DNA of 64,000 nt from Spartobacteria bacterium. Its GTDB lineage: Bacteria; Verrucomicrobiota; Verrucomicrobiia; Chthoniobacterales; UBA10450. The notes beneath the pieces were generated by a model. The model was given only the letters and a program-made list of their open reading frames with translations. It was not told where the DNA came from and ran no database searches. The stretch spans positions 255,784 to 319,783 of the forward strand of contig PLCN01000021.1 in the NCBI GenBank assembly GCA_003134785.1, read 5' to 3'. Below are positions 8,301-25,196 of the stretch, piece by piece (positions within the stretch are counted from its first letter, which is position 1; every line of letters begins with the position of its first letter). A program made the position numbers and the translations under genes.

Positions 8301-8563
8301 CCGTCGCTCGTGCTTTGCGAAGACATGTAGAGCATGTTCTCCACGCCATTGACCTGCTGCTCGATTGGCGTCGCCACCGTTTCCGAAACGACCTTCGCGT
8401 TTGCGCCGGGATAATTGGTCGTGACCTGGATCGTTGGTGGCGCGATCTCCGGATATTGCGCAATGGGAAGCGTCGAAAGCGCGATCACGCCGATGAGCGT
8501 GATAACGATACTGATCACCCCGGCGAAGATGGGCCGATCAATGAAGAAGTGCGGGAAGTTCAT
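5360..8563 (-). CDS. RND multidrug efflux permease (HAE1/AcrB type)
   Basis: A 1067-residue inner-membrane proton-driven drug exporter that works as a trimer with a periplasmic adaptor and a TolC-type outer-membrane channel. It begins MNFPHFFIDRPIFAGVISIV, the standard first helix of the HAE1 family, and contains the porter region, the TM4 proton-relay pair in GIVVDDAIVVVEAIEH (around residue 405) and the TM10 lysine in GLACKNAILIVEFAK. Length is normal for AcrB/MexB. The ATG overlaps the stop of the four-helix-bundle gene as ATGA, and the adaptor gene is one gene upstream. No TolC-like gene is present, so the channel must be encoded elsewhere. Confidence 0.95.
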   Translation of the reverse strand: MNFPHFFIDRPIFAGVISIVITLIGVIALSTLPIAQYPEIAPPTIQVTTNYPGANAKVVSETVATPIEQQVNGVENMLYMSSQSTSDGNMTLSITFKLGTNLDTAQVLVQNRVAIAIPILPPDVQRIGVTTKKQSPDITMVVHLVSPDGSLDQLFTSNYALLQIRDELARVDGVGDINVFGAREYSMRLWLDPNKIASRNLTAQDVVTAIQEQNVQVAAGIIGAPPVPKGATAFQYTVSTQGRLTDEKEFGEIVVKTGANGQVTRVRDIARVELAARDYTVNSQLGGKPATAIAVYQLPGSNALATSDAVRKKMAELKQRFPAGLDYTIVYDPTVSVRESIHEVQKTLFEAIALVVLVVLIFLQTWRAAIIPLIAIPVSLIGTFAAMSAFGFSINNVSLFGIVLAIGIVVDDAIVVVEAIEHHIEDGLSPRDAARKAMTEVGGALVAIALVLCSVFIPTAFISGITGIFFRQFALTIAVSTAISALNSLTLSPALASLLLRPRGAEKDLFQRLLDGVLGWFFKGFNKVFAWSSNAYGNTIARLIRLPAVVLFIYAGLLGLTALGFKVVPGGFLPTQDRGYAIVYAQLPDASSLDRTQAVVDKITKIGRETPGVLNTVEFAGFNLFGGNQTNTAAVFLPFKEFSERTTAEQGMPAIVAKMNARVRAEIPEALVAVFPPPPVAGIGNAGGYRVFIQDRGNAGLEELQTQAFALTMKANQTPGLTNNLTTFRANVPQLWLDVDRVKAKSMNVPLSNIFGTLQTYLGSTYVNDLTLFGRTYRVTAQADSEFRLKPEDIRLLKTRNVEGGIVPLGSVSTVQEVNGADKITRYNMFTAADLSGQPAPGASTGDALAAVERLAKEVLPTSFTTEWTEIALQQQLAGNSALYIFPLCVLFVFLLLSALYESWSLPLAIILIVPMCLFSSISGVWLRSMENNIFTQIGFVVLVGLACKNAILIVEFAKQIQDRDGKDRFTAAIEACRLRLRPILMTSFAFIFGVLPLVLSKGAGAEMRQALGTAVFFGMLGVTGFGLFLTPVFYVVIMWFKERRERKGSTSAPTQSEPPLTAEPAV

Positions 8564-8955
8564 GCGAATTCTGAATGCGGAATTCGGAATGCAGAATTGG
8601 GAGCGCGGTTACGTCGCGCGGTTTTGATCGAGGCGACGGTGATCGCGATCAGTTCGTTGGCTTCTTGTTTGATCGCCATGAGCTTCGCGGGAGAAACGAG
8701 ATCGGATTCTTCGAGTAACTCGAGCCAGAACAACGTTTCATCGGCTTCTTCTTCGACGATGCCCATCTTGGCGGTGAAGTCTGCGGGCGATTTCGCGCGG
8801 CAAGCAGCGCGATAGTTAGCCGCGACCGATGTGCCGGAACGCACGATCTGCGACGCAAGCGCGCGACCTGCCGTCGTCTTAGGCAACGCGTCAACCAGTT
8901 TCAAAACCCGAAGTGCAAACGCTTTCGTCCGCTTCTTCAGATCAGGTTCACTCAT
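8560..8955 (-). CDS. Four-helix-bundle protein (23S rRNA IVS-protein family)
   Basis: A 131-residue helical protein. SEPDLKKRTKAFALRVLKLV, then TAGRALASQIVRSGTSVAANYRAA (split over helices 2 and 3) and EEADETLFWLELLEES are the conserved blocks of the S23/IVS four-helix-bundle family. These proteins form pentamers and are encoded within 23S rRNA intervening sequences or scattered in genomes; their role is unclear. The last residues, NSAFRIPHSEFA, are encoded by an inverted repeat, not by the family core. The gene sits between the adaptor and permease of an RND operon, where it does not belong functionally, and its TGA overlaps the permease ATG. Confidence 0.85.
   Translation of the reverse strand: MSEPDLKKRTKAFALRVLKLVDALPKTTAGRALASQIVRSGTSVAANYRAACRAKSPADFTAKMGIVEEEADETLFWLELLEESDLVSPAKLMAIKQEANELIAITVASIKTARRNRAPNSAFRIPHSEFA
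8568..8598. repeat. Left arm of inverted repeat flanking the four-helix-bundle gene
   Basis: This 31-base arm, with core AATGCGGAATTCGGA, is repeated inverted at 8965-8995 with about 25 of 31 positions identical. The pair brackets the four-helix-bundle gene almost exactly. The arm also encodes the last residues of that protein. Confidence 0.65.
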
Positions 8956-8996: not shown

Positions 8997-10124
8997 TTAT
9001 TTCTCCGGCACGGGCGTGACGTGCATCCCGGATTGCACCAATTGCAGACGCGTGGATACGACTTTCTCGCCGTCCTTGAGCCCGCTCTTCACAATGCGTT
9101 TGCCTTCGAAAATGGTGCCGGTTTCAAGAGTGCGGCGCTCGAGGGTGTTATCGGGTTTCACCACGAACGCGTATTTCAGGCCCTGCTGTGAGCTGATCAC
9201 TTTGTCGTCAATGAGCGCGGCGCGATACGGCGTCGCGCCGGCAATGCGCACACGAGCGAAGAAACCCGGAGTGATGAGAGCAGGGTTCCAGTTTTTTAGC
9301 ACCACGCGCGCACGCACCGTGCCGGTCCCGGGATCAAGACGATTGTCCACGAAGTCGATGTAACCTTCGTGTGGGAAGTCAGTCTCGTTACCAAGCTCGA
9401 CGAAAGCCGCGATCTTATCCGTGCGCGCGCTGACGCGTTTTCCTTCTTCGCTGAGCTTTACATATTTTAGCACCGCGTTTTCGTCCGCATCGACCTTTGC
9501 ATAAATCGGATCGACCGAGACCACGGTGGTCAGCACGCTCTCCGGGCCCGCGCCGGGCTGAACGAGATTGCCCAACGTGATGCGCGCATCGCTCACACGG
9601 CCGTCGATCGGCGATTTGATTTGCGTGAATTCCAGATTCAGCGCGGCGGAATTCTTGGCCGCCTCAGCCGACCGGGACGCCGCGGAAGAACCTTGGTAAG
9701 TTGCAGCCTTTTGATCAAACTCGCTGGCTGAGATCGTGTTCTTCGCTCGCAGATCTTTCGCCCGGTCCAACTCGATCTCTGCTAGCTTGAGCTGCGACTG
9801 CGTTCGCTCGAACTCGGCCGCGGCCCGGTCGAAGTCCGCCTGGTAAGGCCGCGGATCGATGACATAGAGCAGATCGCCCTTCTTGATGATGGCGCCCGCT
9901 TCAAAGTGGATCTCGGTAATGTAACCGGACACGCGTGGCCGGATCTCGACCGACTCGACCGCCTCCAAACGTCCGGTAAATTCGTCCCACTCGTTTACCT
10001 CTTTCTCGACCACGGTCACGACGTTGACCGGCAACGGACCTTGCTGAGGTGCGGACGCTTTCTTGCATCCAGTTGCTGTTAACAGAAGAAGCCAGAGACC
10101 TAGACAGACAAAAAGAGATTTCAT
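8997..10124 (-). CDS. RND efflux periplasmic adaptor (membrane-fusion lipoprotein)
   Basis: A 375-residue membrane-fusion protein that links the RND permease to an outer-membrane channel. It begins with a lipoprotein signal peptide ending in LTATGCKKA, so the mature protein should be lipid-anchored at that cysteine. Then come the barrel/lipoyl half (VEIRPRVSGYITEIHFEAGA), an alpha-hairpin around residues 95-165 with FERTQSQLKLAEIELDRAKD, the second lipoyl half (IKSPIDGRVSDA) and the beta-barrel. Length is normal for AcrA/MexA proteins. It is the first gene of the operon with the permease at 5360-8563; the four-helix-bundle gene has come to lie between them. Confidence 0.93.
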   Translation of the reverse strand: MKSLFVCLGLWLLLLTATGCKKASAPQQGPLPVNVVTVVEKEVNEWDEFTGRLEAVESVEIRPRVSGYITEIHFEAGAIIKKGDLLYVIDPRPYQADFDRAAAEFERTQSQLKLAEIELDRAKDLRAKNTISASEFDQKAATYQGSSAASRSAEAAKNSAALNLEFTQIKSPIDGRVSDARITLGNLVQPGAGPESVLTTVVSVDPIYAKVDADENAVLKYVKLSEEGKRVSARTDKIAAFVELGNETDFPHEGYIDFVDNRLDPGTGTVRARVVLKNWNPALITPGFFARVRIAGATPYRAALIDDKVISSQQGLKYAFVVKPDNTLERRTLETGTIFEGKRIVKSGLKDGEKVVSTRLQLVQSGMHVTPVPEK

Positions 10125-10721: not shown

Positions 10722-11054
10722 ATGCAACGCGCGTTGATGCGGCCTTTGGCAATCCCGGTCCTTCGCGGCATGATCGCGAGCTGGGTATGCGTGGCGTTTC
10801 TCTCGGCGCTTGCCCTCAGCGTCTCTCCGCGCTGGCACGAATTGCTCCACCCCGACGCAAAATCCGCTCAGCATGAGTGCGCGGTCACGCTCATCGGGTC
10901 CGGCAGTTATCAGCAATCGACGACCGTGCCATTGGTCGTAGCTCCGGTTCCGGCCCTCCAAATTTGTTTCATCCCGGCGCTGCACCCAGTCTGGGTGGCC
11001 TCGCCTTTCATTGGCGCGCGAGTCTTCGAACACGCGCCGCCAGCCGACGCCTAG
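10722..11054 (+). CDS. Small membrane-anchored His/Cys protein, paralogue A (unknown function)
   Basis: A 110-residue protein with one N-terminal hydrophobic segment (IASWVCVAFLSALALSV), then WHELLHPDA, QHECAVT and a C-terminal block that ends VFEHAPPADA. A second protein at 13936-14256 has the same order of motifs (HQLFHHDA, DHECAVT, VLEHAPP). The conserved His, Glu, Asp and Cys residues would suit metal binding on the periplasmic side; this is inference. It resembles small DUF2946-like proteins found beside metal transporter genes. It lies 160 bases ahead of a TonB receptor and behind a perfect inverted repeat that may be an operator. Confidence 0.7.
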   Translation: MQRALMRPLAIPVLRGMIASWVCVAFLSALALSVSPRWHELLHPDAKSAQHECAVTLIGSGSYQQSTTVPLVVAPVPALQICFIPALHPVWVASPFIGARVFEHAPPADA

Positions 11055-11214
11055 GCACGGACTCTAGCCGCGTTCTCGCGCGGAGTATCGACGTTTTCGA
11101 TTCGTCGCGCGTCTTGCGGCACGGATTTCGTGCACGCCTATCCACCATTGCGGTCTCGTCTCACGAGCCCCGCATCAACCCGCATTCACAAAATGATTCT
11201 TAAAAACTTTATCC

Positions 11215-13332
11215 ATGAAAAAATTTCTTACCACAGCAGCAGCGCTGCTCGCCGTTGCCAGCCTTGCGACTGCCCAGGATGCCGTTCAACCGGCATCTTC
11301 TCCCAATCCGGCCGTTACGGCTGAGACTGAACGCATCGTCGTCCAAAGCGAGGCGCTCGACATTTCACGCGAGCAAATTGTGCCGAGTCTCGGCGCCACT
11401 CGTTATACCGTCGGCCCCGACCGGCTCGATTCGCAGGCCCAGGGGGAAAACGCATCGTTCAACCAGACCATTCTCCGCTTCCCCGGCGTGGCGCAGGATT
11501 CCTTTGGTCAACTGCACGTCCGCGGCGAGCACGCTAACCTGCAATACCGCATCGACGACGTGCTCTTGCCCGAAAGCATTCCTGGTTTTGGCCAGGAACT
11601 TGAGACGCGTTTCGCCGACAATATCTCGCTCATAACGGGCGCGCTGCCGGCGCAGTTCGGTTTTCGCAACACCGGCGTAATCGACATCCACACCAAAAGC
11701 GGAGCCGCTTTTCAACAAAGCGAAGCGTCCGTTTACGTCGGAAGTTTCGACACGATCAAGCCGAGCTTCGAGTTCGGGAACGTGACCGGGAAACTCAGCT
11801 CCTACGTCTCCGCTAGTTATTTGCACAGCGGCATCGGCATCGAAAATCCGACCGGCAGCAGCAATCCGATCCACGACAACACCGATCAATACAAATTGTT
11901 CGGCTACTTCTCCTACATCTTTGACGACACGAGCCGCGTCACGCTTCTCCTGAGCGGCAATCACAGTGACTTCCAAATTCCCAACAACCCCGGACAAGCG
12001 GGCGCATTCACCGATATGGGAAGATCGGATTTCGATTCGTCGAAACTGAACGAGAACCAGACCGAGCAATCCTCCTACGCGATCCTCACCTTTCAAAAGA
12101 AAGTGGACGATTTCAGCATGCAGGCGTCCGTTTTCACGCGCTACAGTTCCGTCTTGTTCCGGCCGGATGAGGTTGGCGATTTGATTTTTAACGGCGTCGC
12201 TTCACGCGTCGATCGCGACATTGTCTCGAACGGGATCGAGTTCGATTCGAGTTATAAGCTCGACGATCAGCACACCCTTCGCGGCGGGTTTCTCTTCAGC
12301 GAGCAACACGCCACCGTCGGGACGGCCACGCTCGTGTTTCCCGTCGATGCCAACGGCACTCAGACGAGCGACGTTCCACTCAACATCGTCGATAACCGCG
12401 ACAAATATGGCTACTTTTACGGCTTCTATTTGCAGGACGAATGGAAACCGTTCGAGCAGCTCACCATTAATTTCGGCGGGCGGCTCGATTTTGTGAATGC
12501 GTTCGTCAACGAGAACCAACTCAGCCCGCGACTTAACATCGTTTACGAACCGGTCAAAGGCACCATCATACACGGCGGCTATGCACGCTACTTCACCCCG
12601 CCTCCTTTGGAGAATGTCGATCAAAGCACGATAGCTAAATTCGCTGGCACGACGAACGGATCGGCCATTACCAGCGATTCGCCGGTTACGTCCGAGCGGG
12701 CGCACTATTTCGATGTCGGCGTGACGCAAAAAGTCGCCGAAGGATTCAACGTCGGACTGGACGGTTTCTACAAGAGTTCGCACTCGACGCTCGACGAAGG
12801 CCAGTTCGGCCAGGCGCTCATCCTTTCGTCCTTTAACTACAAGCGCGGCGAAATCTACGGCGGCGAAATTACTTCCAGTTACGATCACGGCCCGTTCTCC
12901 GCCTACCTGAACGCCGGCTACGAATGGGCGCGGGGAACAGAAGTCAGCTCCGCGCAGTTTCTCTTCGATCCCGATGAACTCGCCTACATCAGCAACCACT
13001 GGGTTTTCCTCGACCACGATCAACGTTTCACCGCGTCATCCGGCGTTTCTTACACCTGGAACGATTGGAAGGCGGCGGTGGACGGCCTTTACGGCAACGG
13101 GCTTCGGCGTGGTTTCGCCAATACTCAGAAGAATCCTCCCTATGAGACGTTCAATCTCAGCCTGCAACGCCGGTTCAAGATCACCGAAAAAACTTCTGTC
13201 GTCGTGCGATTCGATGTCGTGAATTTGTTGGATAAAATTTACGAGTTGCGTGACGGCAGTGGCATCGGCGTCGGCGCGCCGCAGTTCGGCCAGCGCCGCG
13301 GGTTCTACGGCTCGATCGCCTTCGACTTCTAG
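11215..13332 (+). CDS. TonB-dependent outer-membrane receptor
   Basis: A 705-residue outer-membrane transporter energised by TonB. MKKFLTTAAALLAVASLATA is a clear Sec signal peptide. The plug domain covers roughly residues 35-150 (RIVVQSEALDIS, FPGVAQDSFGQLHVRG, RIDDVLLPE, GVIDIHTKSG) and the rest forms the beta-barrel, ending in SIAFDF with the terminal phenylalanine used for barrel assembly. The ligand cannot be read directly. Its place between two His/Cys small proteins and upstream of a ZnuABC-like transporter suggests a metal or metallophore, possibly zinc. No canonical Zur box was found in the 160 bases upstream. Confidence 0.88.
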   Translation: MKKFLTTAAALLAVASLATAQDAVQPASSPNPAVTAETERIVVQSEALDISREQIVPSLGATRYTVGPDRLDSQAQGENASFNQTILRFPGVAQDSFGQLHVRGEHANLQYRIDDVLLPESIPGFGQELETRFADNISLITGALPAQFGFRNTGVIDIHTKSGAAFQQSEASVYVGSFDTIKPSFEFGNVTGKLSSYVSASYLHSGIGIENPTGSSNPIHDNTDQYKLFGYFSYIFDDTSRVTLLLSGNHSDFQIPNNPGQAGAFTDMGRSDFDSSKLNENQTEQSSYAILTFQKKVDDFSMQASVFTRYSSVLFRPDEVGDLIFNGVASRVDRDIVSNGIEFDSSYKLDDQHTLRGGFLFSEQHATVGTATLVFPVDANGTQTSDVPLNIVDNRDKYGYFYGFYLQDEWKPFEQLTINFGGRLDFVNAFVNENQLSPRLNIVYEPVKGTIIHGGYARYFTPPPLENVDQSTIAKFAGTTNGSAITSDSPVTSERAHYFDVGVTQKVAEGFNVGLDGFYKSSHSTLDEGQFGQALILSSFNYKRGEIYGGEITSSYDHGPFSAYLNAGYEWARGTEVSSAQFLFDPDELAYISNHWVFLDHDQRFTASSGVSYTWNDWKAAVDGLYGNGLRRGFANTQKNPPYETFNLSLQRRFKITEKTSVVVRFDVVNLLDKIYELRDGSGIGVGAPQFGQRRGFYGSIAFDF

Positions 13333-13420
13333 GACTTCACTCGGCCTTTTTTCGTCAGCCGCTGGAGCCAGGGTCCAATCCCCTTCTCTAGTTCTCTTCG
13401 GCGGCGACGGATGAGCCACC

Positions 13421-13852
13421 ATGAAAACGCCAGCGAAAATCGCCGATCATCCCAAGGCGCGCCTGTACCGGGAGCTTGTCGAGACACTTCGCGCATCCGG
13501 AAGCATGAAAGGAGCAGAGCAGACCTGGATTCGTCTCCGGCTCAACCCGCGGCTTTGGAAGCGGATTGTGACCTACGGGCTTGGTCTAGGTGAGCGGCAA
13601 TGGCAGCTAAACAGAATCGCATTCCCAGAGGCCAACGCGGCGGAGGTAGATGCGGCGTTGCGAGCCGGAAATAATTTGAACCGGCTGTATGAGCTATCCT
13701 GCGGCCATGCCTCCATCGCGAAGGATTCAGCCGGCCATTACAAGATAGGTAATAGTGGACTGAAGATCATCCAGCACGCAACCGTCTCAAGAGCGCCTAG
13801 CCGAGCGCAGGAGACGATTCGTGGTCGCGGCGCCGCTGAGTTTCGATCGTGA
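13421..13852 (+). CDS. Hypothetical protein with a C-terminal block repeated at 26.1 kb
   Basis: A 143-residue basic protein that I do not recognise. It begins MKTPAKIADHPKARLYRELV and its C-terminal part contains AAEVDAALRAGNN, LYELSCGHASIAKDSAG and HYKIGNSGLKIIQHATV. That part is also encoded at 26108-26305 with about 79 percent DNA identity over 141 bases and mostly silent differences, so the segment has been under protein-level selection. There is no signal peptide or membrane helix. It lies 88 bases after the TonB receptor and could belong to the same transcript. The ATG has no strong ribosome-binding site. Confidence 0.55.
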   Translation: MKTPAKIADHPKARLYRELVETLRASGSMKGAEQTWIRLRLNPRLWKRIVTYGLGLGERQWQLNRIAFPEANAAEVDAALRAGNNLNRLYELSCGHASIAKDSAGHYKIGNSGLKIIQHATVSRAPSRAQETIRGRGAAEFRS

Positions 13853-13935
13853 CTGCAATTTCACATCAGCGGTTCTGCCGTTCGTTTACTAATCATTCTT
13901 TGCCAAGGTCTCTAAATTACTCTATATGGCGAGGG

Positions 13936-14256
13936 ATGATGCGAAATCACGAGGCGGCACGTGGGCGGAAAGCCCTCGTTTGTTTGCTCATCAGCCAGTT
14001 CCTGATTATCGCCGGGCTCGCCGCCTCCCCGCACCTGCATCAGTTATTCCATCATGATGCGGATCGCGGCGATCATGAGTGCGCTGTCACAGTAATGGTT
14101 TCCGGCGGGAGCGATGGTTCTCCCGTGCCTCAAATTCTCGATGCTGGGACGCGTTTCCCCACCGCTTTTGATTTTTCGCCGGAGATACTGTCTCACGATG
14201 TAGCTCCTCTTTTTCTTAGTGCTCACGTCTTGGAGCACGCTCCGCCACTCAGCTAA
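13936..14256 (+). CDS. Small membrane-anchored His/Cys protein, paralogue B (unknown function)
   Basis: About 106 residues. GAGGG just before the ATG at 13936 supports this start; an earlier ATG at 13849 would overlap the previous gene. An N-terminal hydrophobic segment (LVCLLISQFLIIAGLAAS) is followed by HLHQLFHHDADRGDHECAVT and a C-terminal VLEHAPPLS. The motif order matches paralogue A at 10722-11054, and the two share HxLxHxDA, HECAVT and EHAPP. The clustered His/Asp/Glu/Cys residues would suit periplasmic metal binding, by inference. It directly precedes the YraQ-type permease, 130 bases upstream of its start. Confidence 0.7.
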   Translation: MMRNHEAARGRKALVCLLISQFLIIAGLAASPHLHQLFHHDADRGDHECAVTVMVSGGSDGSPVPQILDAGTRFPTAFDFSPEILSHDVAPLFLSAHVLEHAPPLS

Positions 14257-14388
14257 CAAAGCGCTGGATGGCGATAAGACCCGAGCGCGATTAGCAGGCG
14301 TCTCGGGAACCTAGCATCGCCGTTGTTACGTGCGGTCGCGCCTTCAACTGGCGCCCGCGGCCGCTTCTCAAGTTTAGCATGATTGGTT

Positions 14389-15417
14389 ATGAGTTGGTTT
14401 ACATTTAATCTACAAGACTTCTCGATCTCTTTTCTGAGCATCCTTTTCGAAGGAGTGCCTTTTATGTTCATCGGCACACTCCTTTCGGGGATCATCGATG
14501 CATTCGTTCCGTCGGAGACGGTCGAAAAAATTCTACCGCGAAATAAGATCGCGGCAATCGCACTGAGCGGAGTTCTTGGCGTGGTCTTTCCGATGTGCGA
14601 GTGCGGCGTCGTGCCCGTGATCCGGCGGCTGATTCGCAAAGGATTGCCGGTTTCGTGCGCGCTGACCTATCTGCTGGCAGCGCCCATCGTCAATCCCATC
14701 GTCGCGCTGAGCACCTTTGCCGCCTTTCGCGGCCAGCATCCCGGGATGGTGACATCGATGCGGCTGCTGATGGGATTTGGCGTGGCCTGTGTCTGCGGAA
14801 TGATAATGCAACGGATTCCAACTCGCGCATTGCTTAATCGGCCGATGCTCGCCTCGCTGCGAAAACGATCGGCACCTTCTCGTGCGCGCGCTCAGCATGT
14901 CCACGAGCTGGCTTATGCTGGAGTCTCGAGCGAAACAAACGTCGTCTTTCCGATTGTTCCCGCGGAAGAGATCGTTCATCTGCACGACGAAGTGCACGCG
15001 GAAAAGCGCTTCGGGCAGAAAATCATCGGCGCGATCCGGTGTGCCGCCTTTGATTTCCTCGACGTCGGATTCTACCTGATCATCGGCGCGGCCATCGCGA
15101 GCGTGTTCAACACCGCGATCAACAAGGAAGTTCTGCTGCCGTTTGCGAGCAATCAACTGCTGGCCACGACCGGAATGATGGTGCTGGCGGGGTTGCTTTC
15201 ACTTTGCAGCACCTCGGACGCATTCATTGCCGCGAATTTTCTGACTTTTCCTGTCACCGCGAAACTCGCGTTCATGGTCTTCGGGCCAATGATGGATATG
15301 AAATTGCTTTTCATGTACGGGCTCGTTTTCAAGAAGCGTTTCACCTTCATCTTCGCGCTCAGCTTGTTTGTCTTCATCGGATTGCTTTGCCTGGCGCTCG
15401 CCCCTCTCCTGCGATGA
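14389..15417 (+). CDS. YraQ/SO_0444-type metal permease (DUF318)
   Basis: A polytopic inner-membrane protein of about 342 residues. The signature FPMCECGVVPVIRRLIRKG (around residue 70) and LAAPIVNPIVALSTFAAF, repeated in diverged form in the second half (LCSTSDAFIAANF), define the DUF318 family, which includes proteins named Cu/Zn efflux transporters. The conserved Cys pair probably touches the metal. An in-frame TTG at 14383 is possible, but the ATG at 14389 is preferred. Its stop overlaps the start of the TIGR03943 gene as ATGA; the two families are regular partners. It opens a ten-gene operon that runs to 26093. Confidence 0.88.
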   Translation: MSWFTFNLQDFSISFLSILFEGVPFMFIGTLLSGIIDAFVPSETVEKILPRNKIAAIALSGVLGVVFPMCECGVVPVIRRLIRKGLPVSCALTYLLAAPIVNPIVALSTFAAFRGQHPGMVTSMRLLMGFGVACVCGMIMQRIPTRALLNRPMLASLRKRSAPSRARAQHVHELAYAGVSSETNVVFPIVPAEEIVHLHDEVHAEKRFGQKIIGAIRCAAFDFLDVGFYLIIGAAIASVFNTAINKEVLLPFASNQLLATTGMMVLAGLLSLCSTSDAFIAANFLTFPVTAKLAFMVFGPMMDMKLLFMYGLVFKKRFTFIFALSLFVFIGLLCLALAPLLR

Positions 15418-16478
15418 AAATCTTCGCACGCATTCTCGCTCCGCTCACTCTTCTCGAATGGGGAGGTATCCTGACGTATTTTTATTTCAGCGGCCGCATC
15501 GCAGCGTTCCTGCATCCGATGTTTCGACCGCTTGTCCTCGTCACGGGCATCCTGCTTCTTATCACTGCGGCGTGCGTTGCGATTTTCCACGAGGAAGAAT
15601 GCGATCACGAGCATGAGCACGAGGAAGAAGGCGGGGAAGATTTACAGCAGCACAGCCATTCGCACGGCAGACTGAGCTTTGGCGGTTTCCTCGCGTCCCT
15701 CATCTTGCTTCTACCGCTCGCATTGGCAGCGAAAATTTCGCCGGACAGTTACGGCGCGAACCTGATCAAGAATCGCGGTTTAGTGGAAGATATCCGTAGC
15801 ATTCCAGGCGCGGCGAGTTCGTTCGCGAATCGGACGAAGCCCGTTGACTCGACCGCTGCCCCGGCAACATCCGAACAAAAGCCGTCTCTCACCGTTATCC
15901 CTTCCTCGGCGCCGCCGGAATACATCGGCGTGGAAGAAACGCCAATATCGAAACGGAATCCGAATTCGGAGCCAGCATTGCCCTCAAATGACTCTGAGCA
16001 GGTGACTCCGCCATCGTCCACTGATTCTTCGCCTAACGAGGTCGTTAACGATTTTCTCAAGCCAGACAAGGCCGGTCACATCAAGTGCGAGATTGTCGAT
16101 CTTCTCTATGCCGCCCAGGAACCGTTCACGCGCAAAGATTTTGAAGGAAAAGAAGTCGAGCTGATCGGGCAGTTAGTTCCGGCCAAGTCAAAGGCCGCGA
16201 CGAAAGCGGCCGCGCCGGCCGGATCATTCAAACTCCTCCGCCTCGTCATGGTTTGTTGCGCCGCCGACGCGATGCCGATTGCGGTGAAGATTGAAACGAA
16301 GCTGCCGCCAATGGAGATCCGCGATATGCAGTGGTTGAAGGTAACTGGTCGCGTGCATTACCGGCCGCGGGTGAAAGACAATTCAGATAATACTGATTAC
16401 GGCGATCAGCCAGAGCCGGTCATCGTGGCGGACTCGATCAAGAAGGTCGCCGCGCCCGCGGAAAAGTACCTCTACTAA
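15414..16478 (+). CDS. TIGR03943/YcgQ-family permease subunit
   Basis: About 354 residues starting at the ATG that overlaps the permease stop. Two N-terminal helices (LTLLEWGGILTYFYF; LVLVTGILLLITAACVAIF) are followed by an acidic/His-rich loop (EECDHEHEHEEE, HSHSHG), a further helix near 90-110 and a long soluble domain. That domain contains LRLVMVCCAADAMPIAV and WLKVTGRVHY, the CCAAD motif and OB-like end of TIGR03943. Family members are encoded next to DUF318 permeases and are thought to form one metal transporter with them. The His-rich loop suggests Zn or a similar ion. A Ser/Pro/Thr-rich linker around residues 125-210 is longer than usual. Confidence 0.85.
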   Translation: MKIFARILAPLTLLEWGGILTYFYFSGRIAAFLHPMFRPLVLVTGILLLITAACVAIFHEEECDHEHEHEEEGGEDLQQHSHSHGRLSFGGFLASLILLLPLALAAKISPDSYGANLIKNRGLVEDIRSIPGAASSFANRTKPVDSTAAPATSEQKPSLTVIPSSAPPEYIGVEETPISKRNPNSEPALPSNDSEQVTPPSSTDSSPNEVVNDFLKPDKAGHIKCEIVDLLYAAQEPFTRKDFEGKEVELIGQLVPAKSKAATKAAAPAGSFKLLRLVMVCCAADAMPIAVKIETKLPPMEIRDMQWLKVTGRVHYRPRVKDNSDNTDYGDQPEPVIVADSIKKVAAPAEKYLY

Positions 16479-16488
16479 AGCGCGCCAA

Positions 16489-17232
16489 ATGTTCTTCGTT
16501 ATTCGATCCACTTCATTCGCAGCGATAACCATCGCTTTGGCAGCGGCTGGAGTGGCCCAAGCCGGAAATTCGTTTTCGACGGTCGTCATCGATCCAGGAC
16601 ACGGCGGCTTTGATCGAGGCGGCATACCCGGCCAGCAAGTCCCGGAAAAAATGGTGGCACTCGATACGGCCTTGCGTCTGGAGAAAATTTTGCAACGAGC
16701 GGGAGTGCGCACCGTGATGACACGCTCCACGGATATTTTCGTTCCGCTGTCAGTCCGAAGCGCGATCGCCAATGCGCAGCACGACGCGATCTTCGTGAGC
16801 ATTCATTACAATGCCTCGCCCCGCCACGGCGCGCATGGGATCGAGACCTATTCCGAAAACAATCGCGGCGCAGTGCTCGCGGCACGCGTCCAAAGGCAGA
16901 TCATCAGTCGCGTCAGCACGGAAAACCGTGGGATGCGCTCAGCCGAATACTATGTGCTTCGCAATTGCCGGTTGCCCGCCGTCCTTGTCGAATGCGGTTT
17001 TCTCACCAATCCAAGCGAAGCTCAATTGGCCCTTAGACCTGCTTATCGACAGGAGGTCGCGGAACAGATCGCCGCAGGTATCATGGAGCAGCGGCAATTC
17101 GCATTTCCGCCGCTCATTCGGACTCATCGGCCTGGGCGTTTGGTGCACAGAAACAGGAAACACCGAAAAGTCGCGGATTCGGGGCCGCTTGGTTGCCCTT
17201 CGCTCACTTTTCCAACCGCCAAAGAAAGCTGA
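16489..17232 (+). CDS. N-acetylmuramoyl-L-alanine amidase (Amidase_3 family)
   Basis: A 247-residue secreted zinc hydrolase that cuts the amide bond between MurNAc and the stem peptide of peptidoglycan. A signal peptide (about residues 1-23) precedes the catalytic domain. Zinc ligands and catalytic residues are visible: the His in VIDPGHGGFDRGG, the Glu in GQQVPEKMVALD, the His in VSIHYNASP and the Glu in VLVECGFLTNPSE. The C-terminal 35 residues are an unusual basic tail (RTHRPGRLVHRNRKHRK). It lies 10 bases after the TIGR03943 gene and 3 bases before the first SPFH gene, so it is embedded in the metal operon. There is no SPOR or AMIN domain. Confidence 0.9.
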   Translation: MFFVIRSTSFAAITIALAAAGVAQAGNSFSTVVIDPGHGGFDRGGIPGQQVPEKMVALDTALRLEKILQRAGVRTVMTRSTDIFVPLSVRSAIANAQHDAIFVSIHYNASPRHGAHGIETYSENNRGAVLAARVQRQIISRVSTENRGMRSAEYYVLRNCRLPAVLVECGFLTNPSEAQLALRPAYRQEVAEQIAAGIMEQRQFAFPPLIRTHRPGRLVHRNRKHRKVADSGPLGCPSLTFPTAKES

Positions 17233-17235
17233 CCG

Positions 17236-19077
17236 ATGCTTCGCATGACAAATCCCAAGCCACCCGCAGAAGTTAACGATGGGGAGATCGGTCTGACCGC
17301 ATCCGACTTTGCGCATCTCCACCGGGCGCTGTTGTGGCTCCTAATCCTGTTTGCCGGCTCTGCCGCGACAAGTCTGGCCATCAATTTGCCGACGCCGCTG
17401 TTTGCGGGGATGCAGTGTTATCTCGCCTGGTGTGCGATCGCCGCGCTGATTCAATATTTTTTCCTGCGCATTGAAAGCTCGGCTTTACGCGCTGACGATG
17501 CTGATCGCAGCATGACAGCGCCCCGCGGCCACAAGCCGAACCGCGCCGAGCACAGGGATCGTTCGATCATTTCTGGTCCGAGCCTTTCGAACTTCGCGAG
17601 CACCTGGCAATGGGTGATTTTCTTCGCCGGAGTAATCGGGACGGCCTTGTGTATCCGCGAAACTTTTGGCATGGCCGGGTTGGCGGGAGACGCGACCACT
17701 TCGCTGCGCGTGGCGACGGTCGTGTTCCTTGCCGCCGCCTGCGCATTTTATTTCTTCGGAAATTTTGCAAAAGCCGTGGCGACCCGGATCGGAAGCGATG
17801 CGCTGTCGCCGATCTTGACGCTGACACGGATCGCTTCGCTGGCTTCGTTTGCCGCCGCGGGATCAATTTTCCTGTTCCTTTCGACCACGCGCGATTACAG
17901 CGCCTGGCTCGGTTGGTTCTTGATTGGCTTCACGACATTCTTGATCACGGAAGCGCTCCTTCGTTTCGCTGTGCGATTTTACCAGCCGAAGAGTCTCCGC
18001 AAGCCGCCGGGCCCGGCTGGGAGCAGTCTGGTCCTTGATGCTCTCTTCGGCCATGGCCATGGCCTTGGCTCCGCCGTCAAGGGTTTCGAGGACTTGTTAG
18101 GTGTAAGACTGCGTGAGGTCTGGATCGTTCGCTATCTGCGTCAGACCGTTGAGCTGATCGTCATCGTGACGGTCGTGCTGGGATGGCTGTCCACCTGCCT
18201 CACCTCCGTTCCAGCCGGGAGCCGGGCGGTGCGGATGCTCTTTGGGCGTTACCAACCGGTCCCGCTTTCACCCGGCCTTCACGTCACCTGGCCCTGGCCG
18301 ATCGAGCAACTGGAGATCGTCGAGACGGAAACCATTCGCCAAATTTCGCTCGGCTTCGACAAGGATATGTCCGGGCCGGTGCTCTGGAACGAACCGCATT
18401 TTGAAGGTGAAAAAAATCTGCTGGTCGGCGATGGCGAATCGCTTCTGACCATCGACGTCCCGATCTTCTATCGCATCTCCGATCCGGTGCGTTATCTGGA
18501 AACGACCACGGACGCCGAACAGGCCCTGCTCGCTTTGGCGGAGCGCAAACTGATTCAAGTGGCCGCTTCGCGCGACAGTTTCCAGATCATGACAGAGCAG
18601 CGCGCGGAAATTGCGCGGCAACTGGGAGAATCATTGCAGCAGGAAGTGGATCAGCTCGGGCTCGGTCTGCAGATCGTGTTTGTCGGGCTGAAGGACGTCC
18701 ATCCGCCGGTCGATGTCGCACCGGCCTATCAGGCAGTCGTCAGTGCCCAGGAAGAAAAAGAGAAAACGATCGATCTCGCACGCGCCTCACGCGTTAAGGT
18801 ATTGCCCGAGGCCCAAGCCGAGGCTACTCGCATCCGAATCGAGCAAGACGCGCTCTACAAGCAGCGCGTTGCCGCTGCGCAAGGTGAGGCCGCGCGCTTT
18901 TCCGCGATTGTTCAGGCTGATCGCGAGAACAGCGCAGTCTTTCGTTTCCGATTGAAGCTCGACGTGATCGAGCAAGTCCTGGGCAAAGCCAACAAGACCA
19001 TCCTGGCTGTGCCCGCGCAGACGAAACAGGAGCTCTACCTCGATTTGCGCGACACCAACAACCTGCCTCCACCGTAA
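17236..19077 (+). CDS. HflK-like SPFH protein with extra N-terminal membrane domain
   Basis: A 613-residue membrane protein. The first 240 residues hold about six hydrophobic helices (e.g. WVIFFAGVIGTALCI and ASFAAAGSIFLFLS), a domain that normal HflK (about 420 residues, one helix) lacks. A further helix near 300 (VELIVIVTVVLGWLST) leads into an SPFH/band-7 domain: VPAGSRAVRMLFGRY, LSPGLHVTWPWPIEQLEIV, LTIDVPIFYRISDPVRYLE. A coiled-coil follows (AQEEKEKTIDLARASRVKVL). SPFH proteins form large membrane cages, and HflK/C enclose the FtsH protease. It is one of three consecutive SPFH genes in the metal operon. No FtsH gene is in the window. Confidence 0.85.
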   Translation: MLRMTNPKPPAEVNDGEIGLTASDFAHLHRALLWLLILFAGSAATSLAINLPTPLFAGMQCYLAWCAIAALIQYFFLRIESSALRADDADRSMTAPRGHKPNRAEHRDRSIISGPSLSNFASTWQWVIFFAGVIGTALCIRETFGMAGLAGDATTSLRVATVVFLAAACAFYFFGNFAKAVATRIGSDALSPILTLTRIASLASFAAAGSIFLFLSTTRDYSAWLGWFLIGFTTFLITEALLRFAVRFYQPKSLRKPPGPAGSSLVLDALFGHGHGLGSAVKGFEDLLGVRLREVWIVRYLRQTVELIVIVTVVLGWLSTCLTSVPAGSRAVRMLFGRYQPVPLSPGLHVTWPWPIEQLEIVETETIRQISLGFDKDMSGPVLWNEPHFEGEKNLLVGDGESLLTIDVPIFYRISDPVRYLETTTDAEQALLALAERKLIQVAASRDSFQIMTEQRAEIARQLGESLQQEVDQLGLGLQIVFVGLKDVHPPVDVAPAYQAVVSAQEEKEKTIDLARASRVKVLPEAQAEATRIRIEQDALYKQRVAAAQGEAARFSAIVQADRENSAVFRFRLKLDVIEQVLGKANKTILAVPAQTKQELYLDLRDTNNLPPP

Positions 19078-19089
19078 GCCGCCTTTTTT

Positions 19090-19992
19090 ATGAAACCGCA
19101 AATGCTCATCCGCTTCATCGTTTCGCTGCTCGTGCTTCTCGTTCTGTTCTCGTTCATGCTTGGCTTTCAGGTCCGCCAAAACGAACAGGTCGTGCTGACT
19201 CGTTTCGGCAGTCCATCGCGCGTCATTCAAAAACCGGGACTTTACCTGAAATGGCCGTGGCCCATCGAAAAAGTGAATCGCTTCGATGCCCGCCTGAACT
19301 TCCATGAAATCCGCCTTTCCGAAGCGCTGACGAAAGACAAGCGCAACGTCATTGTCCCGGTTTTCATTGCCTGGCGAATTGTTAATCCGCAACGATTTCT
19401 CGAAGCGATCGGAAGCACGGAGAATGCGCGGGCGAAACTCGACAGCCTGGTTAGCAGCGCGAAAAACACTGTGCTCGGCAGTTACGATTTCGGCCAGCTC
19501 GTGTCGGTCAAGCCGGAAGACGTAAAATTGCCTGAGATCGAGCAAAAGATCACAGGGTTAAGTTCTGGTCAGGCCAGAGATTCGTTCGGCATCGCGATTG
19601 AACAAGTGGGGATCGAGCGAGTCACGCTGCCTGAAGTGAACACGCGTTTTGTTTTCGAGCGGATGCAGGCCGAACGCGCGCAATTCGCCGAGCGCTACCG
19701 CGCGGAAGGCAAACAGGAAGCGGACGCGATCAATGCCAAGACGGACGCAGAGCGAACCGTTCTTCTTGCTGAAGCACGCAAATCGGCCGAGGAAACGCGC
19801 GGCAAAGCGGAAGCAGAAGTGGCGCGCATTTATTCCGCGGCGCATCAGGAGCAGCCTGATCTCTATCGTTTTCTGCGCGAATTGGAGGCGCTCAAGAAGG
19901 TCGTCAATCAAAACACCACGCTGGTGCTCGATGCCAACGCGCCGCCCTTCGACCTTTTGAAAGCAGCTCCGTCACCTCCATCAAAACCATGA
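19090..19992 (+). CDS. hflC: HflC-like SPFH protein
   Basis: A 300-residue single-pass membrane protein. The N-terminal helix IRFIVSLLVLLVLFSFMLGF is followed by the SPFH domain (VRQNEQVVLTRFG, GLYLKWPWPIEKVNRFDARL, VPVFIAWRIVNPQRFLEAI) and by a charged Ala/Glu-rich coiled coil from about residue 200. Length and order match HflC, the partner of HflK in the periplasm-facing cage that controls FtsH. It follows the 613-residue SPFH gene by 12 bases and overlaps the next one by ATGA, so the three products are probably made in fixed ratio and form one complex. The target of the complex is unknown; the operon suggests metal transport proteins. Confidence 0.88.
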   Translation: MKPQMLIRFIVSLLVLLVLFSFMLGFQVRQNEQVVLTRFGSPSRVIQKPGLYLKWPWPIEKVNRFDARLNFHEIRLSEALTKDKRNVIVPVFIAWRIVNPQRFLEAIGSTENARAKLDSLVSSAKNTVLGSYDFGQLVSVKPEDVKLPEIEQKITGLSSGQARDSFGIAIEQVGIERVTLPEVNTRFVFERMQAERAQFAERYRAEGKQEADAINAKTDAERTVLLAEARKSAEETRGKAEAEVARIYSAAHQEQPDLYRFLRELEALKKVVNQNTTLVLDANAPPFDLLKAAPSPPSKP

Positions 19993-21062
19993 GCCGCCGA
20001 CGAGAAGATGCCCTTTTTTTCGCGCACGCGATTCTGGCGGCGTTGCGCTCCAGCATCCGTATTTTGCGGTGGGGGATGCTCGTCCTGATGCTGATCTATC
20101 TTTGTTCGGGCATCACCACCGTCGGCCCCAACCAACGCGGATTGGTGCTGCGTTTTGGCCGCGCTCTGCCGAAAAGCGCGCCGCCCGGTCTTCTCCTTGC
20201 CTTCCCAGCACCGATTGATGAGGTGGTAATGCTTCCAGCAAAGAGCGTGCAGGAAGTCGTGCTCGACGCCTGGAAGCCTAACGACGATTCGTGGCGGGAT
20301 TCGCTCCATCCGGCGCGCGATCCTTACACCATCACCGGCGATGTGAACATCATCCGCGCCCGTTTTTCCGTGCGCTTTCAAGTGGCGGACCCCATCGCGT
20401 ATGAGTTCGGGACCAGTGCGCGTGAAGATCTGCGCAATATGATTTGTTATCAAAGCGCCTGCCGTGTTCTCGCGGGCATGAGCGTCGATGATGTGCTCAC
20501 GACCCGCCGTGATTTCATCGGTCAGGAATCAATGCGATTGGCGCAGGAAGAACTCGATCGACTCGGGCTCGGCGTCCAACTCCTGGCGTTTGAAACGCGC
20601 GAGATCAATCCGCCCGCTTCGGTATTGCAAGCCTTTCAGGATGTAATCAGCGCCAAAGTTGAAGCCAGGACCCTGGTGGAACCGGCGCGAAGCCGGCATG
20701 CCTCCGTCATTCCGGAAGCAAACGCAGAGGCCTATCGGGTTCAGCAGGAAGCGCAATCTTATGCGCAAGGATTGATCGCAAAGGCGCAAGGCGAAGTGTC
20801 GGCGTTTCTTGCGTTGCTGAAGGAATACCGCGCCAATCCGGGAACCGTGCACACACGGCTTTACGCCGAGATGATTGAAAAAGTGTTGCCGAAGCTGCGG
20901 GTCACGAGCGTTCTGCCGACCGACCGCGGCGAGGTGCGCATCCTTGTGTCTCCGCAGAAGGCAGACGCGATAGAAACGCCGCCTAACGAATCGCAACCGC
21001 TGCTTTCCCCTCCGAACACGCAATATCCACAGAACATCCAGCCGATGGAAGATCATCCCTGA
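19989..21062 (+). CDS. hflK: HflK-like SPFH protein
   Basis: A 357-residue protein whose ATG overlaps the hflC stop. One N-terminal helix (WGMLVLMLIYLCSGITTV) precedes VGPNQRGLVLRFGRAL, GLLLAFPAPIDEVVMLP and RFSVRFQVADPIAYEF of an SPFH domain, and then a helical Ala/Gln-rich region (AYRVQQEAQSYAQGLIAKAQ). The C terminus is Pro/Asn-rich. It is closest to HflK, with the typical signature in which FxTREINPP follows the domain. It is the third member of the SPFH trio and lies 18 bases before the P-type ATPase gene. Regulation and target are not known. Confidence 0.85.
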   Translation: MSRRREDALFFAHAILAALRSSIRILRWGMLVLMLIYLCSGITTVGPNQRGLVLRFGRALPKSAPPGLLLAFPAPIDEVVMLPAKSVQEVVLDAWKPNDDSWRDSLHPARDPYTITGDVNIIRARFSVRFQVADPIAYEFGTSAREDLRNMICYQSACRVLAGMSVDDVLTTRRDFIGQESMRLAQEELDRLGLGVQLLAFETREINPPASVLQAFQDVISAKVEARTLVEPARSRHASVIPEANAEAYRVQQEAQSYAQGLIAKAQGEVSAFLALLKEYRANPGTVHTRLYAEMIEKVLPKLRVTSVLPTDRGEVRILVSPQKADAIETPPNESQPLLSPPNTQYPQNIQPMEDHP

Positions 21063-21080
21063 GGATCCCAATTCGAAACT

Positions 21081-23096
21081 ATGAATTCCACAAGCGCTCC
21101 GCTGCTAGATCCGCATGTCCATGCCCACGATCACTCCGATCATGAACATCATCACCACGATCACGATCACGATCATGATCATGATCACGAAGGCGAACAT
21201 CTGCGCGGCGGCCTTGGCAAATGCGGGCATGATCATTCCGAAAGCGGAATGAAATGGCGGCTCACCCTCGTTCTTCTCGGCGGAGTCTGCCTGATTCTTA
21301 GTGGGATTCTTCGCTGGCTCCGTCCCGGACAGAACGATCTGGCGGTCACGTGGTCAATGATCGGCGCGATCGTCACCGCGCTTCCGATCTTTCGCGATGC
21401 GCTCCTTGGTTTTCGCTCGAAGGCTTTTGCGAACACCGAGTTTTACATGAACCAGTTCATCACGCTCGCGGTGATCGCCTGTTTCGTGACTCAGCAATAT
21501 GTGGTCGGCGGCGTGGTCGCGATCATTCTGCTTGTCGGCCACATCCTGGAAGACCGCAGCATGCTTGGGACGAATGAGGCGATCAACAGCCTCCTGCATT
21601 TGTCGCGGGTGACCGCGCGGCGGGTGCGCGACGGAGTCGAAGAAGAAGTCGATGCCGAATCGCTCGGTGAGGATGAAATCGTGCGCGTGCGCCCAGGCGA
21701 CACGATGCCGGCAGACGGTTTGGTCGTGAGCGGATTCTCGACGGTGAATCAGGCGACGATCACGGGCGAATCGCTTCCGGTAGAAGTGGAAGCCGGAGCG
21801 ACTGTTTTCGCCGGCACGTCAAATCTCACCGGCTCGATCGAAGTCAAAGTAACCAAGACCGGGACGCAAACTGTCCTCGGCCGCGTGAAAGAGATTGTCG
21901 AGGAAGCACAGCAAACTCGAGCGCCGATCGTGCGGCTGACCGAAGAGTACGCGCGCTATTACATGCCGTTGATCCTGCTCATCGCGGGATTCGTTCTCTT
22001 CTTCACTCAGGATGTGCAGCGCGCCATCTCGGTGATCGTCGTGAGCATTCCGTGCACGTTCGTGCTCGCGGGACCTTCAGCGATGGTGGCGGCGCTCGCG
22101 GCCGCTTCGCGCATGGGAATTCTCGTGAAGAGTGTGCGCTTCTTCGAGGTCGCCAACGAAATCGACACGGTCGTCTTCGACAAGACGGGCACGCTGACGA
22201 CTGGCGAATTGAGAGTCGCAGCGATCGCGCCCCACGACGGCATGGCGGAAAACGAATTGCTCGCGCTCGTCGCCGCGGTGGAGCAACACTCCACTCATCC
22301 AATCGCCCGCGCGGTTGTGACCGCGGCGCAAGATCGGCAATTGAGAATCGCGGACGCGGAAGACGTGCAGGAAAAACACGGGCACGGTTTGGTCGCGCGC
22401 GTCGGCCCGCTCGACGTCGTGGTCGGTCGCGGCGCCTGGCTGATGGAACAGGCGATCGAGATTCCTCAAAAGGAAAAAAACTTCGACGACCTGAGCGCGC
22501 TCCACATCGGCGTGAACCGCAAACTCGCCGGGATCATTTATCTGAGCGACACGGTTCGAGCCGAAGCCAAAGGCGTCAGTGCCGATCTGCGCGAAGCCGG
22601 CGTCGATCATTTGATGATGTTGACCGGCGACCGCCGGAGCGTCGCGGAATCGATCGCCGAGCATGTGGGGATGACGGAATTCGAGGCCGATTGCCTGCCC
22701 GAGCAAAAACAGGAGGCGGTGCACAAGCTCAAGGCTGGCGGCCGCAAAGTCATGGTCGTCGGCGACGGCGTGAACGATGCGCCCGCGCTGGCGGCGGGCG
22801 ATTTGAGCGTCGCCATGGGCGCGCTCGGCAGCGACGTGGCGATTCAAACCGCCGACATCGCTTTGATGGCGAGCGATCTTCGCCGCGTCCCGCATTTCCT
22901 CGCGCTCTCGGACAAAACGTTGCGGATCATCAATCAAAACATGCTGTGCGGTTTCGTTTTCATCGCCGCCGCGATTGTTCTTGCCGGCGTGGGGCTGATT
23001 CCGCCGATCGCAGCGGCCTTCATCCACGAATTCGGGGCGTTCTTTGTCATCTTCAATAGCGCGCGGTTGCTGCGCTTCGAGGGGAAAGTTGCATGA
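21081..23096 (+). CDS. P1B-type metal-transporting ATPase with His-rich N terminus
   Basis: A 671-residue ATP-driven metal pump. About 15 His residues lie between residues 9 and 38 (HDHDHDHDHDHEGEH), a probable metal-sensing or donor tail in place of a folded HMA domain. Hallmarks in order are TGES in the actuator domain, DKTGT with the phosphorylated Asp367, HP in the nucleotide domain (STHPIARAV) and GDGVNDAPAL. The transmembrane metal site reads SIPC (residues 322-325) where family members carry CPC, SPC or TPC, and the last helix holds HEFGAFFVIFNSARLL. That resembles the P1B-4 group (Co/Zn/Fe) more than the Cu group. The direction is presumably export. It is followed 22 bases later by a metal-binding protein gene. 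Confidence 0.9.
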   Translation: MNSTSAPLLDPHVHAHDHSDHEHHHHDHDHDHDHDHEGEHLRGGLGKCGHDHSESGMKWRLTLVLLGGVCLILSGILRWLRPGQNDLAVTWSMIGAIVTALPIFRDALLGFRSKAFANTEFYMNQFITLAVIACFVTQQYVVGGVVAIILLVGHILEDRSMLGTNEAINSLLHLSRVTARRVRDGVEEEVDAESLGEDEIVRVRPGDTMPADGLVVSGFSTVNQATITGESLPVEVEAGATVFAGTSNLTGSIEVKVTKTGTQTVLGRVKEIVEEAQQTRAPIVRLTEEYARYYMPLILLIAGFVLFFTQDVQRAISVIVVSIPCTFVLAGPSAMVAALAAASRMGILVKSVRFFEVANEIDTVVFDKTGTLTTGELRVAAIAPHDGMAENELLALVAAVEQHSTHPIARAVVTAAQDRQLRIADAEDVQEKHGHGLVARVGPLDVVVGRGAWLMEQAIEIPQKEKNFDDLSALHIGVNRKLAGIIYLSDTVRAEAKGVSADLREAGVDHLMMLTGDRRSVAESIAEHVGMTEFEADCLPEQKQEAVHKLKAGGRKVMVVGDGVNDAPALAAGDLSVAMGALGSDVAIQTADIALMASDLRRVPHFLALSDKTLRIINQNMLCGFVFIAAAIVLAGVGLIPPIAAAFIHEFGAFFVIFNSARLLRFEGKVA

Positions 23097-23118
23097 ACCA
23101 CGTCGCCGGTTGTCGCTC

Positions 23119-24439: not shown

Positions 24440-25195
24440 ATGCCGACTCATCATCTGGAAATAAAAGATCTGACGGTGGCCTATCACCGCGTTCCGGCGG
24501 TGCATCACGTCAGCCTCGATTTGCGTTGCGGTCATTGCATCGCGCTCCTCGGGCCGAACGGTGCGGGCAAGACCACATTTTTCAAAGCGCTGGTCGGGCT
24601 CGTGCCGAAGGAAACCGGCGAGATCGTTTTCGGCGGTCACGGGAAAGTGGGCGCGGATACCGACATCGCCTATTTGCCGCAACGCAGTGTGATCGACTGG
24701 GATTTTCCCATCGCCGTGCGCGGCATGGTCGAGATGGGCCGTTACATGCGCATCGGCAAGTGGGGACGCTTCGGCAAAGCCGACGCCGACGCGGTCGATC
24801 TTGCCTTGCGCACCATGGACCTGCCCGAGCTGGCCACGCGGCAAATCAGCGCGCTTTCCGGCGGGCAACAACAGCGCGCCTTTCTCGCGCGGTCGCTTGC
24901 ACAAGAGGCCCACGTTTTTCTGCTCGACGAACCGTTTACCGGCCTCGACAAACCCGCGCAGGATTTGCTCGCCCAGGCGATTCGCAAACTTGTCGCGGTC
25001 GGAAATCTCGTCATCGCGTCCCACCACGATTTGAGGTCGGTGCCGGAACTTTTCGATCAGGTGATTTTCCTCAACGGAGAGCTGATCGCGTTTGGCGACA
25101 CCGGCGAAGCTTTCAACGAAGAAAACATCGCGCGCACTTATCGGACCCAGATCTTCTCTGACGCGCACGCGCATCGCCACGCGGCCTGCCACTGA
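24440..25195 (+). CDS. Metal ABC transporter ATP-binding protein (ZnuC-like)
   Basis: A 251-residue cytoplasmic ATPase. Walker A is GPNGAGKTT (residues 38-46), the Q-loop is in IAYLPQRSVIDWDFP, the signature is [17 protein letters not shown], Walker B is VFLLDEPFTGLD and the switch His is in VIASHHDLRSV. PQRSVIDWDFP is characteristic of Zn/Mn family 5 ATPases. The C terminus carries extra His (DAHAHRHAACH), which may bind the imported metal. The next gene, the permease, begins one base after its stop. Confidence 0.92.
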   Translation: MPTHHLEIKDLTVAYHRVPAVHHVSLDLRCGHCIALLGPNGAGKTTFFKALVGLVPKETGEIVFGGHGKVGADTDIAYLPQRSVIDWDFPIAVRGMVEMGRYMRIGKWGRFGKADADAVDLALRTMDLPELATRQISALSGGQQQRAFLARSLAQEAHVFLLDEPFTGLDKPAQDLLAQAIRKLVAVGNLVIASHHDLRSVPELFDQVIFLNGELIAFGDTGEAFNEENIARTYRTQIFSDAHAHRHAACH

Positions 25196-25196
25196 C

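Follow-up and report, generated by a model that had tools for sequence, protein, structure and literature searches.

Candidate metal-sensing leader peptides at the head of metal-uptake operons in a family of Spartobacteria

Two small His/Cys proteins and a third copy

The DNA analyzed here, below called the window, is a stretch of 64,000 nucleotides (nt) of contig PLCN01000021.1 (positions 255,784 to 319,783) from the Spartobacteria bacterium assembly GCA_003134785.1 (Verrucomicrobiota; Chthoniobacterales; UBA10450). It contains two small open reading frames (ORFs), encoding 110 amino acids (aa) at 10722-11054 and 106 aa at 13936-14256, which we discuss as candidate leader peptides 1 and 2 and which, like all window features below unless stated otherwise, lie on the forward strand. 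Both are present where a preliminary description of the window had placed them, and the arrangement reported there holds as well: the two copies enclose a TonB-dependent receptor gene (11215-13332), the presumed regulated gene of leader 1, together with a small hypothetical ORF (13421-13852), and the second copy precedes metal genes, namely those of an ArsP_1 family permease (DUF318; 14389-15417) and a putative permease subunit (TIGR03943/DUF1980; 15405-16478). Leader 1, which heads the receptor gene, was assigned from its ORF, tblastn matches, alignment and neighbors, and leader 2, which heads the ArsP/TIGR03943 metal cluster, from its ORF, alignment and neighbors.

In a MAFFT alignment, the two proteins are 38% identical, with HxxxH, HECAVT and EHAPP in register. 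Each carries a putative metal site, P-x2-H-x3-H-x7-H-E-C-A-V-T, at 10827-10889 in leader 1 (from alignment and motif conservation) and at 14029-14091 in leader 2 (from alignment and spacing), followed by an arrest-like HAPP motif placed 3 codons before the stop in leader 1 (11031-11042) and 2 codons before it in leader 2 (14236-14247). A whole-genome tblastn search with leader 1 as the query recovered leader 2 (E 4.5e-11) and, on a different contig, C25, a third copy (E 5.4e-10; L003:1492-1815, minus strand); one further match was weak (E 0.575, L004). The third copy has H-x3-H, HECAVT and EHAPP and is without DA. The set of shared elements listed in the preliminary description (an N-terminal helix, HxLxHxDA, HECAVT and EHAPP, in the same order) therefore stands for both window copies, while the DA is not a general feature. 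Judging by the tblastn E values, the two window proteins and the third copy are paralogues whose likeness goes beyond chance. Neither window protein had a Pfam or NCBIfam match at E values up to 1.

Relatives and the genes behind them

The three copies in the host genome each lie directly before a different metal-uptake unit: the TonB receptor, the ArsP_1-TIGR03943 cluster, and a unit consisting of an outer-membrane-type protein (OMP), ZnuA and an ABC-3 permease. In this last unit, the OMP was named by its look, without a firm Pfam match, and is followed by ZnuA (PF01297, 1.3e-55) and the permease (8.9e-38). The genome has two ZnuA-family genes and both are downstream of a leader, one in the operon of the third copy and the other in the cluster behind leader 2.

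With a profile built from the three host copies, 24 of 387 Verrucomicrobiota genomes gave matches, as did 38 of 58 near relatives; the latter were 32 of 37 genomes in the host's family and, from the rest of the order, 6 of 21. We retrieved 67 regions around the matches and read 77 members out of 79 distinct places listed, omitting one at a contig edge (G408:C242) and one inside a 1368-aa frame (G075:C26); the 77th member (genome G387, locus L098), a truncated leader, does not enter the counts of 76. A profile of the 76 members detected leaders in 46 of 64 host-family genomes that are at least 80% complete and, among the better of these, in 26 of 30. The named records are metagenome-assembled genomes of soil and palsa Spartobacteria, Chthoniobacterales or Verrucomicrobia (33 of 33 loci). 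An NCBIfam scan of the 76 members gave no recurring family of likely relevance, the commonest being LptF_YjgP in 3 members (best E 0.049), and among viral contigs 4 stretches matched the pattern of the leader-family profile (A3), none of which was confirmed. In a tree of the leaders with the motif left out, the motif changes 17 times and the downstream class 23 times; these sequences are short, and the tree was not used further.

Downstream classes were assigned by tblastn with fixed queries on the same strand. Metal-uptake genes lie directly behind 73 of the 76 leaders: TonB receptors in 42 cases, OMP-ZnuA-ABC-3 in 26 and ArsP-TIGR03943 in 5. The 42 receptors comprise 23 of the window type, 18 that are ZnuD-like and 1 other; ZnuD (NF038289) was the best NCBIfam match for 7 of 8 receptors scanned, with E between 5.5e-90 and 6e-136, none of them reaching the strict cut-off. 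When pairs of loci of the same class from different genomes were compared, upstream genes were common to 33 of 507 pairs and downstream genes to all 507, in part because the classes had been defined by their downstream genes. With the downstream side shared and the upstream side not conserved, the conserved unit begins with the small ORF. The preliminary description had named homologues lying away from metal genes as an observation that would speak against it; since 73 of 76 lie directly before metal-uptake genes, the opposite was found. The metal link of the small proteins is strong, and the interpretation given earlier is partly supported, as set out below.

Behind leader 2, the gene order is ArsP, TIGR03943, amidase, three SPFH proteins, P-type ATPase, ZnuA, ABC ATPase and ABC-3. 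The amidase, the three SPFH/band-7 genes (the first HflK-like) and the P-type ATPase fill 16489-23096 on one strand, between ArsP/TIGR03943 and ZnuA; amidase and HflK-like genes also remain behind ArsP in L064, L073 and L086. The P-type (E1-E2) ATPase of this co-directional cluster spans 21081-23096, and the ZnuA-type metal-binding protein 23044-24003 as the longest frame, its true start probably lying further in. The ABC ATPase (24440-25195) and ABC-3 permease (25092-26093) together occupy 24440-26093. A stretch of the small ORF at 13421-13852 is repeated at 26145-26358, behind the ABC-3 permease gene (78% over 214 nt), and this ORF may be an interspersed repeat and not a gene. The truncated member (L098, around 9160-9359) joins what is left of leader 1 to what is left of the hypothetical region at 13.4 kb, and the stretch examined contains no receptor gene; leader and receptor have apparently been lost together in this genome. 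Elsewhere in the window, a minus-strand ORF of 131 aa (8560-8955) lies between RND pump-like and fusion-protein-like genes and overlaps the pump start by 4 nt; we take it to resemble the four-helix-bundle/23S rRNA intervening-sequence proteins.

A metal site at a fixed distance from an arrest-like end

Across the 76 members, the fixed parts are H, H, H-x-C and a terminal x-[AG]-P-P. Two His, the Cys and the first Pro are invariant, and one Pro, the third His, one Gly and the second Pro are conserved in at least 90%. The pattern H-x3-H...H-x-C fits 70 of 76 members, a Cys at C+3, as in CXXC, occurs in 0 of 76, and a hydrophobic 19-mer, an export or transmembrane (TM) helix, stands ahead of the metal site in 75 of 76. 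Among all 77 members, the terminal tetrapeptide is HAPP in 50, RGPP in 10, CGPP in 7, RAPP in 6, HGPP in 2 and HAPL in 1, the truncated member having none; in other words, 76 of 77 end in x-[AG]-P-[PL], and in 66 of 76 a tail of 2 or 3 residues follows it. The profile match ended short of the motif (no further than model position 101 of 115) in 24 members, so that the motif could not have been selected for there, and it is nevertheless present in 23 of these 24. As a background from the same loci, such a motif occurs within the last 20 residues in 17 of 5252 other frames of 80 or more codons. The motif is spelled by 44 different codon combinations in the 76 genes, which places the selection on the peptide.

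The distance from the Cys to the motif is narrowly distributed, at 47 (5 members), 48 (22), 49 (22), 50 (21), 51 (5) and 53 (1) residues, and hence 47-51 in 75 of 76. Here, the key Cys was picked within 44-56 residues of the motif; under a looser rule, the peak was unchanged and the Cys was mis-picked or missed in four members. The linker between metal site and motif is about 45 residues long, with a standard deviation in length of 1.1, and averages about 30% identity versus 47% for the metal motif. An AlphaFold model from a 21-row alignment has a mean predicted local distance difference test (pLDDT) score of 63.9 and is confident only in the N-terminal helix and in short helices over the His motif.

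This anatomy bears on the role suggested in the preliminary description, in which the proteins are small periplasmic carriers that hand metal from the receptor to the inner membrane. On that reading, the exported peptide would bind metal through three His and one Cys and deliver it to the inner-membrane transporter. The export or TM helix, the conserved His and Cys residues and the metal neighbors (73 of 76) all suit such carriers. However, a carrier leaves unexplained both the terminal x-[AG]-P-P at its fixed distance from the Cys and the low conservation, without a confident fold, of what lies between them. Each operon is headed by its own paralogue instead of one carrier being shared by the cell, and the closest characterized relatives, CruR and CutF, act in cis. 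We consider carriers improbable as the explanation of the family, although a carrier function on top of a leader role is possible.

Comparison with known nascent-chain sensors

According to the available text of the work on CruR (Bp2923, DUF2946) of Bordetella pertussis, this exported, copper-responsive upstream regulator has a CXXC motif, 45 residues and then RAPP three residues from its end; RAPP is required for downstream expression without copper and CXXC for repression by copper, and spacing changes of 1-2 residues are tolerated while changes of 5 are not (PMC9426467). The same text describes CruR as a nascent-chain sensor that acts in cis from the head of an operon, with a dispensable signal peptide, a gap of 162 nt behind it and Rho-dependent termination (PMC9426467). 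The leaders share with CruR the N-terminal export signal, the metal motif, a fixed-length spacer of about 45 residues, the terminal arrest-like tetrapeptide and the position at the operon head, as well as a TonB-receptor operon, a gap of about 130-160 nt and C-rich mRNA. Indeed, the first CXXC Cys of CruR is 48 residues before RAPP (positions 90 and 139), within the 47-51 range of the leaders. In contrast to CruR, the leaders have a His-rich H-x-C site without a second Cys (76 of 76), those in the host's family end mostly in HAPP instead of RAPP, and ZnuA/ABC-3, ZnuD-like and ArsP-TIGR03943 genes are headed as well.

The DUF2946 model (PF11162) had 0 matches in the two window proteins and none over its cut-off in the 76 members; at a maximum E of 10, weak matches appeared in 8 of 76 (best E 0.056). 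Six verrucomicrobial DUF2946-type proteins (L129, L163, L165, L169, L172 and L177, of which the first three are over the model cut-off) show the 48/45 register, CXXC, and RAPP or RGPP. Aligned with the 76 members by hhalign, these six gave a probability of 95.7% over only 20 columns around CAVTL/CAIC, and L172 looks intermediate, with H-x3-H...H-x-C-x-x-C...GRAPP. A tblastn search of plasmids with L129 gave no match. As the leaders neither match the DUF2946 model nor have CXXC, we class them as a CruR-type variant that stands outside DUF2946.

RAPP-like arrest peptides (ApdA, ApdP, the RQH families and SecM) offer a second comparison, being described in the accessible parts of PMC10987492 and PMC12992588 as small exported proteins with a C-terminal [RH][AG]PP, upstream of a regulated gene. 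The leaders, too, are small exported proteins that end in, or close to, a motif of the [RHQ][AG]PP type; CGPP, the end of seven members (L113, L114, L118, L119, L123 and two in L124), is outside the arrest-motif list in the portions of these papers available and could be a further stalling sequence. As far as their available text goes, the surveys treat sec/yidC leaders, or RAPP and RGPP only (PMC10987492, PMC12992588), and metal leaders ending in HAPP or CGPP do not figure there. The survey of RAPP-like motifs across proteomes mentions neither HAPP nor zinc, so that RGPP and RAPP relatives before TonB receptors may sit unnamed in its dataset; in Gram-negatives, the EMBO J survey reports ORFs with RAPP or RGPP ahead of TonB-receptor genes. 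For HAPP, the part of PMC10987492 at hand describes in vitro arrest in uDF_RQH_Lachnospirales, a leader related to Sec/YidC. Since Sec/YidC leaders are the best-known source of RAPP-like motifs and the leaders here carry export signals, these could be monitors of secretion like SecM or ApdP, with the metal neighbors mattering only as secreted receptors and binding proteins. RAPP-like peptides respond to secretion, whereas the input proposed for the leaders is metal: 73 of 76 precede metal-uptake genes, the other three do not precede sec/yidC genes, and the columns of the His/Cys site rank with the best conserved. We regard secretion monitoring as very improbable.

Instead, we infer from the fixed spacing, the arrest-like end, the poorly conserved remainder and the separate copy for each operon that the small proteins are cis-acting metal-sensing leaders (upstream ORFs) of the CruR type, including both arrest and metal response, with a probability of roughly 0.78; the same features speak against the carrier role. 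When metal is scarce, the ribosome would stall at HAPP and keep the downstream genes on. The stalled ribosome could protect the mRNA from Rho, the route known from CruR, or it could keep a structured gap open before the next start. At arrest, given the length of the exit tunnel, the metal site would be about 50-65 residues from the peptidyl-transferase center, just beyond the tunnel or at the translocon. When metal is present, it would bind the nascent His/Cys site just outside tunnel or translocon, and the resulting folding would relieve the stall, so that the leader is completed and the downstream genes are shut; the finished peptide would probably be a by-product. The sensed metal could be cytoplasmic or periplasmic, given that CruR and CutF differ in their need for a signal peptide.

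The downstream switch is the least certain step of this mechanism. The gap behind leader 1 (11055-11214) is conserved in five congeners and strongly foldable (z -4.4). The mRNA near the leaders is C-rich and in this bias resembles rut sites: the maximum C-minus-G excess in 78 nt is 0.205 versus 0.158 in random downstream stretches, the regions not being independent. A search for intrinsic terminators gave 9 terminator-like sites, none of which falls in a leader gap. A common RNA structure in both gaps was considered and rejected, as only the first gap beats shuffles.

Several points count against the leaders as metal sensors. The gap behind leader 2 (14257-14388) folds no better than shuffles (z -0.5) and RNAalifold shows a single compensatory pair (a double change) in 42, on which account the switch is held least certain. 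For three of the 76 leaders, no metal-uptake gene turned up immediately downstream: one (L124 4178-4483) precedes an ABC ATPase/permease-like pair, one (L107 9443-9775) an unassigned 312-aa protein and one (L099 3033-3359) an alpha/beta hydrolase. Moreover, 18 of 64 host-family genomes, many of them fragmented, have no leader match. HAPP is less documented than RAPP and RGPP, and for the one natural case in the portion of the study available, the His dependence was seen in B. subtilis but not in E. coli extracts (PMC10987492). Finally, CutF of Rhodobacter capsulatus resembles the leaders as an exported nascent metal sensor with a proline-rich C terminus before metal genes, and its relatives include His-only groups; yet, in the available text, its proline-rich end did not stall in tests (PMC9973294). 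CutF also differs from the proposed leaders in that copper switches genes on, which, as this text describes, needs the signal peptide and a stem-loop over the downstream start (PMC9973294).

The sensed metal and the absence of Fur-family regulators

If the small proteins are metal-sensing leaders, the sensed metal is probably zinc, which we favor because of the targets (ZnuA/ABC-3 and ZnuD-like receptors), the ligand set and the absence of Zur. A His/Cys site in place of CXXC suits zinc, as far as sequence can tell. The znuABC genes and znuD-like receptors are Zur targets, and the leaders head the same kind of genes as the Zur regulon. No Fur-family (Fur/Zur/PerR) protein was found in the host genome or, in two scans, in 37 of 37 and 64 of 64 genomes of its family; such a protein was detected in 21 of 21 other genomes of the same order and in 13 of 14 control genomes. 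This search for zinc regulators covered the Fur family, and no search for others was made. Outside the host's family, leader members coexist with Fur in the ten genomes checked by eye (G010, G060, G075, G080, G088, G091, G143, G169, G181 and G271), so that the leaders are probably older than the loss of the Fur family.

Some observations pull away from zinc. PF01297 also covers manganese proteins, and the host genome has a single DtxR/MntR-like regulator (L182 1477-1935). The best NCBIfam matches of the window receptor are haem and haemoglobin receptors, and it is not ZnuD-like. The same leader mechanism could therefore respond to copper, manganese, iron, or nickel/cobalt. Copper is what CruR and CutF sense, and His-only CutF relatives lie near HupE/UreJ, for which nickel or cobalt was proposed, the word "zinc" being absent from the available text of that paper (PMC9973294). 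With ZnuD-like receptors behind 18 leaders, ZnuA operons behind 26 and CXXC absent from all 76, we judge a metal other than zinc less likely than zinc. Against manganese in particular, Cys-containing sites are unusual for this metal.

Very few proteins are known to sense a metal as nascent chains, and those tested in the literature available to us respond to copper. Our search for a zinc-responsive arrest leader found none in open-licence PMC papers, which is not proof of absence. These would be the first zinc-sensing translational-arrest leaders, replacing the absent Zur across one family, where each genome would have as many as three HAPP paralogues to switch the receptor, ZnuA-ABC importers and ArsP-TIGR03943 cluster operon by operon, without a zinc-responsive DNA-binding protein; for this full proposal, our confidence is tentative and falls somewhat below an even chance. 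If true, a zinc version would mean that the CruR principle was retuned by a ligand swap, with the 48-residue geometry to the arrest motif kept, and HAPP, RAPP, RGPP and CGPP would form a natural series for probing which tetrapeptides stall ribosomes. Annotators would be warned that such "hypothetical" proteins are regulatory elements, and the leaders would explain how metal uptake is controlled in bacteria without a Fur-family protein.

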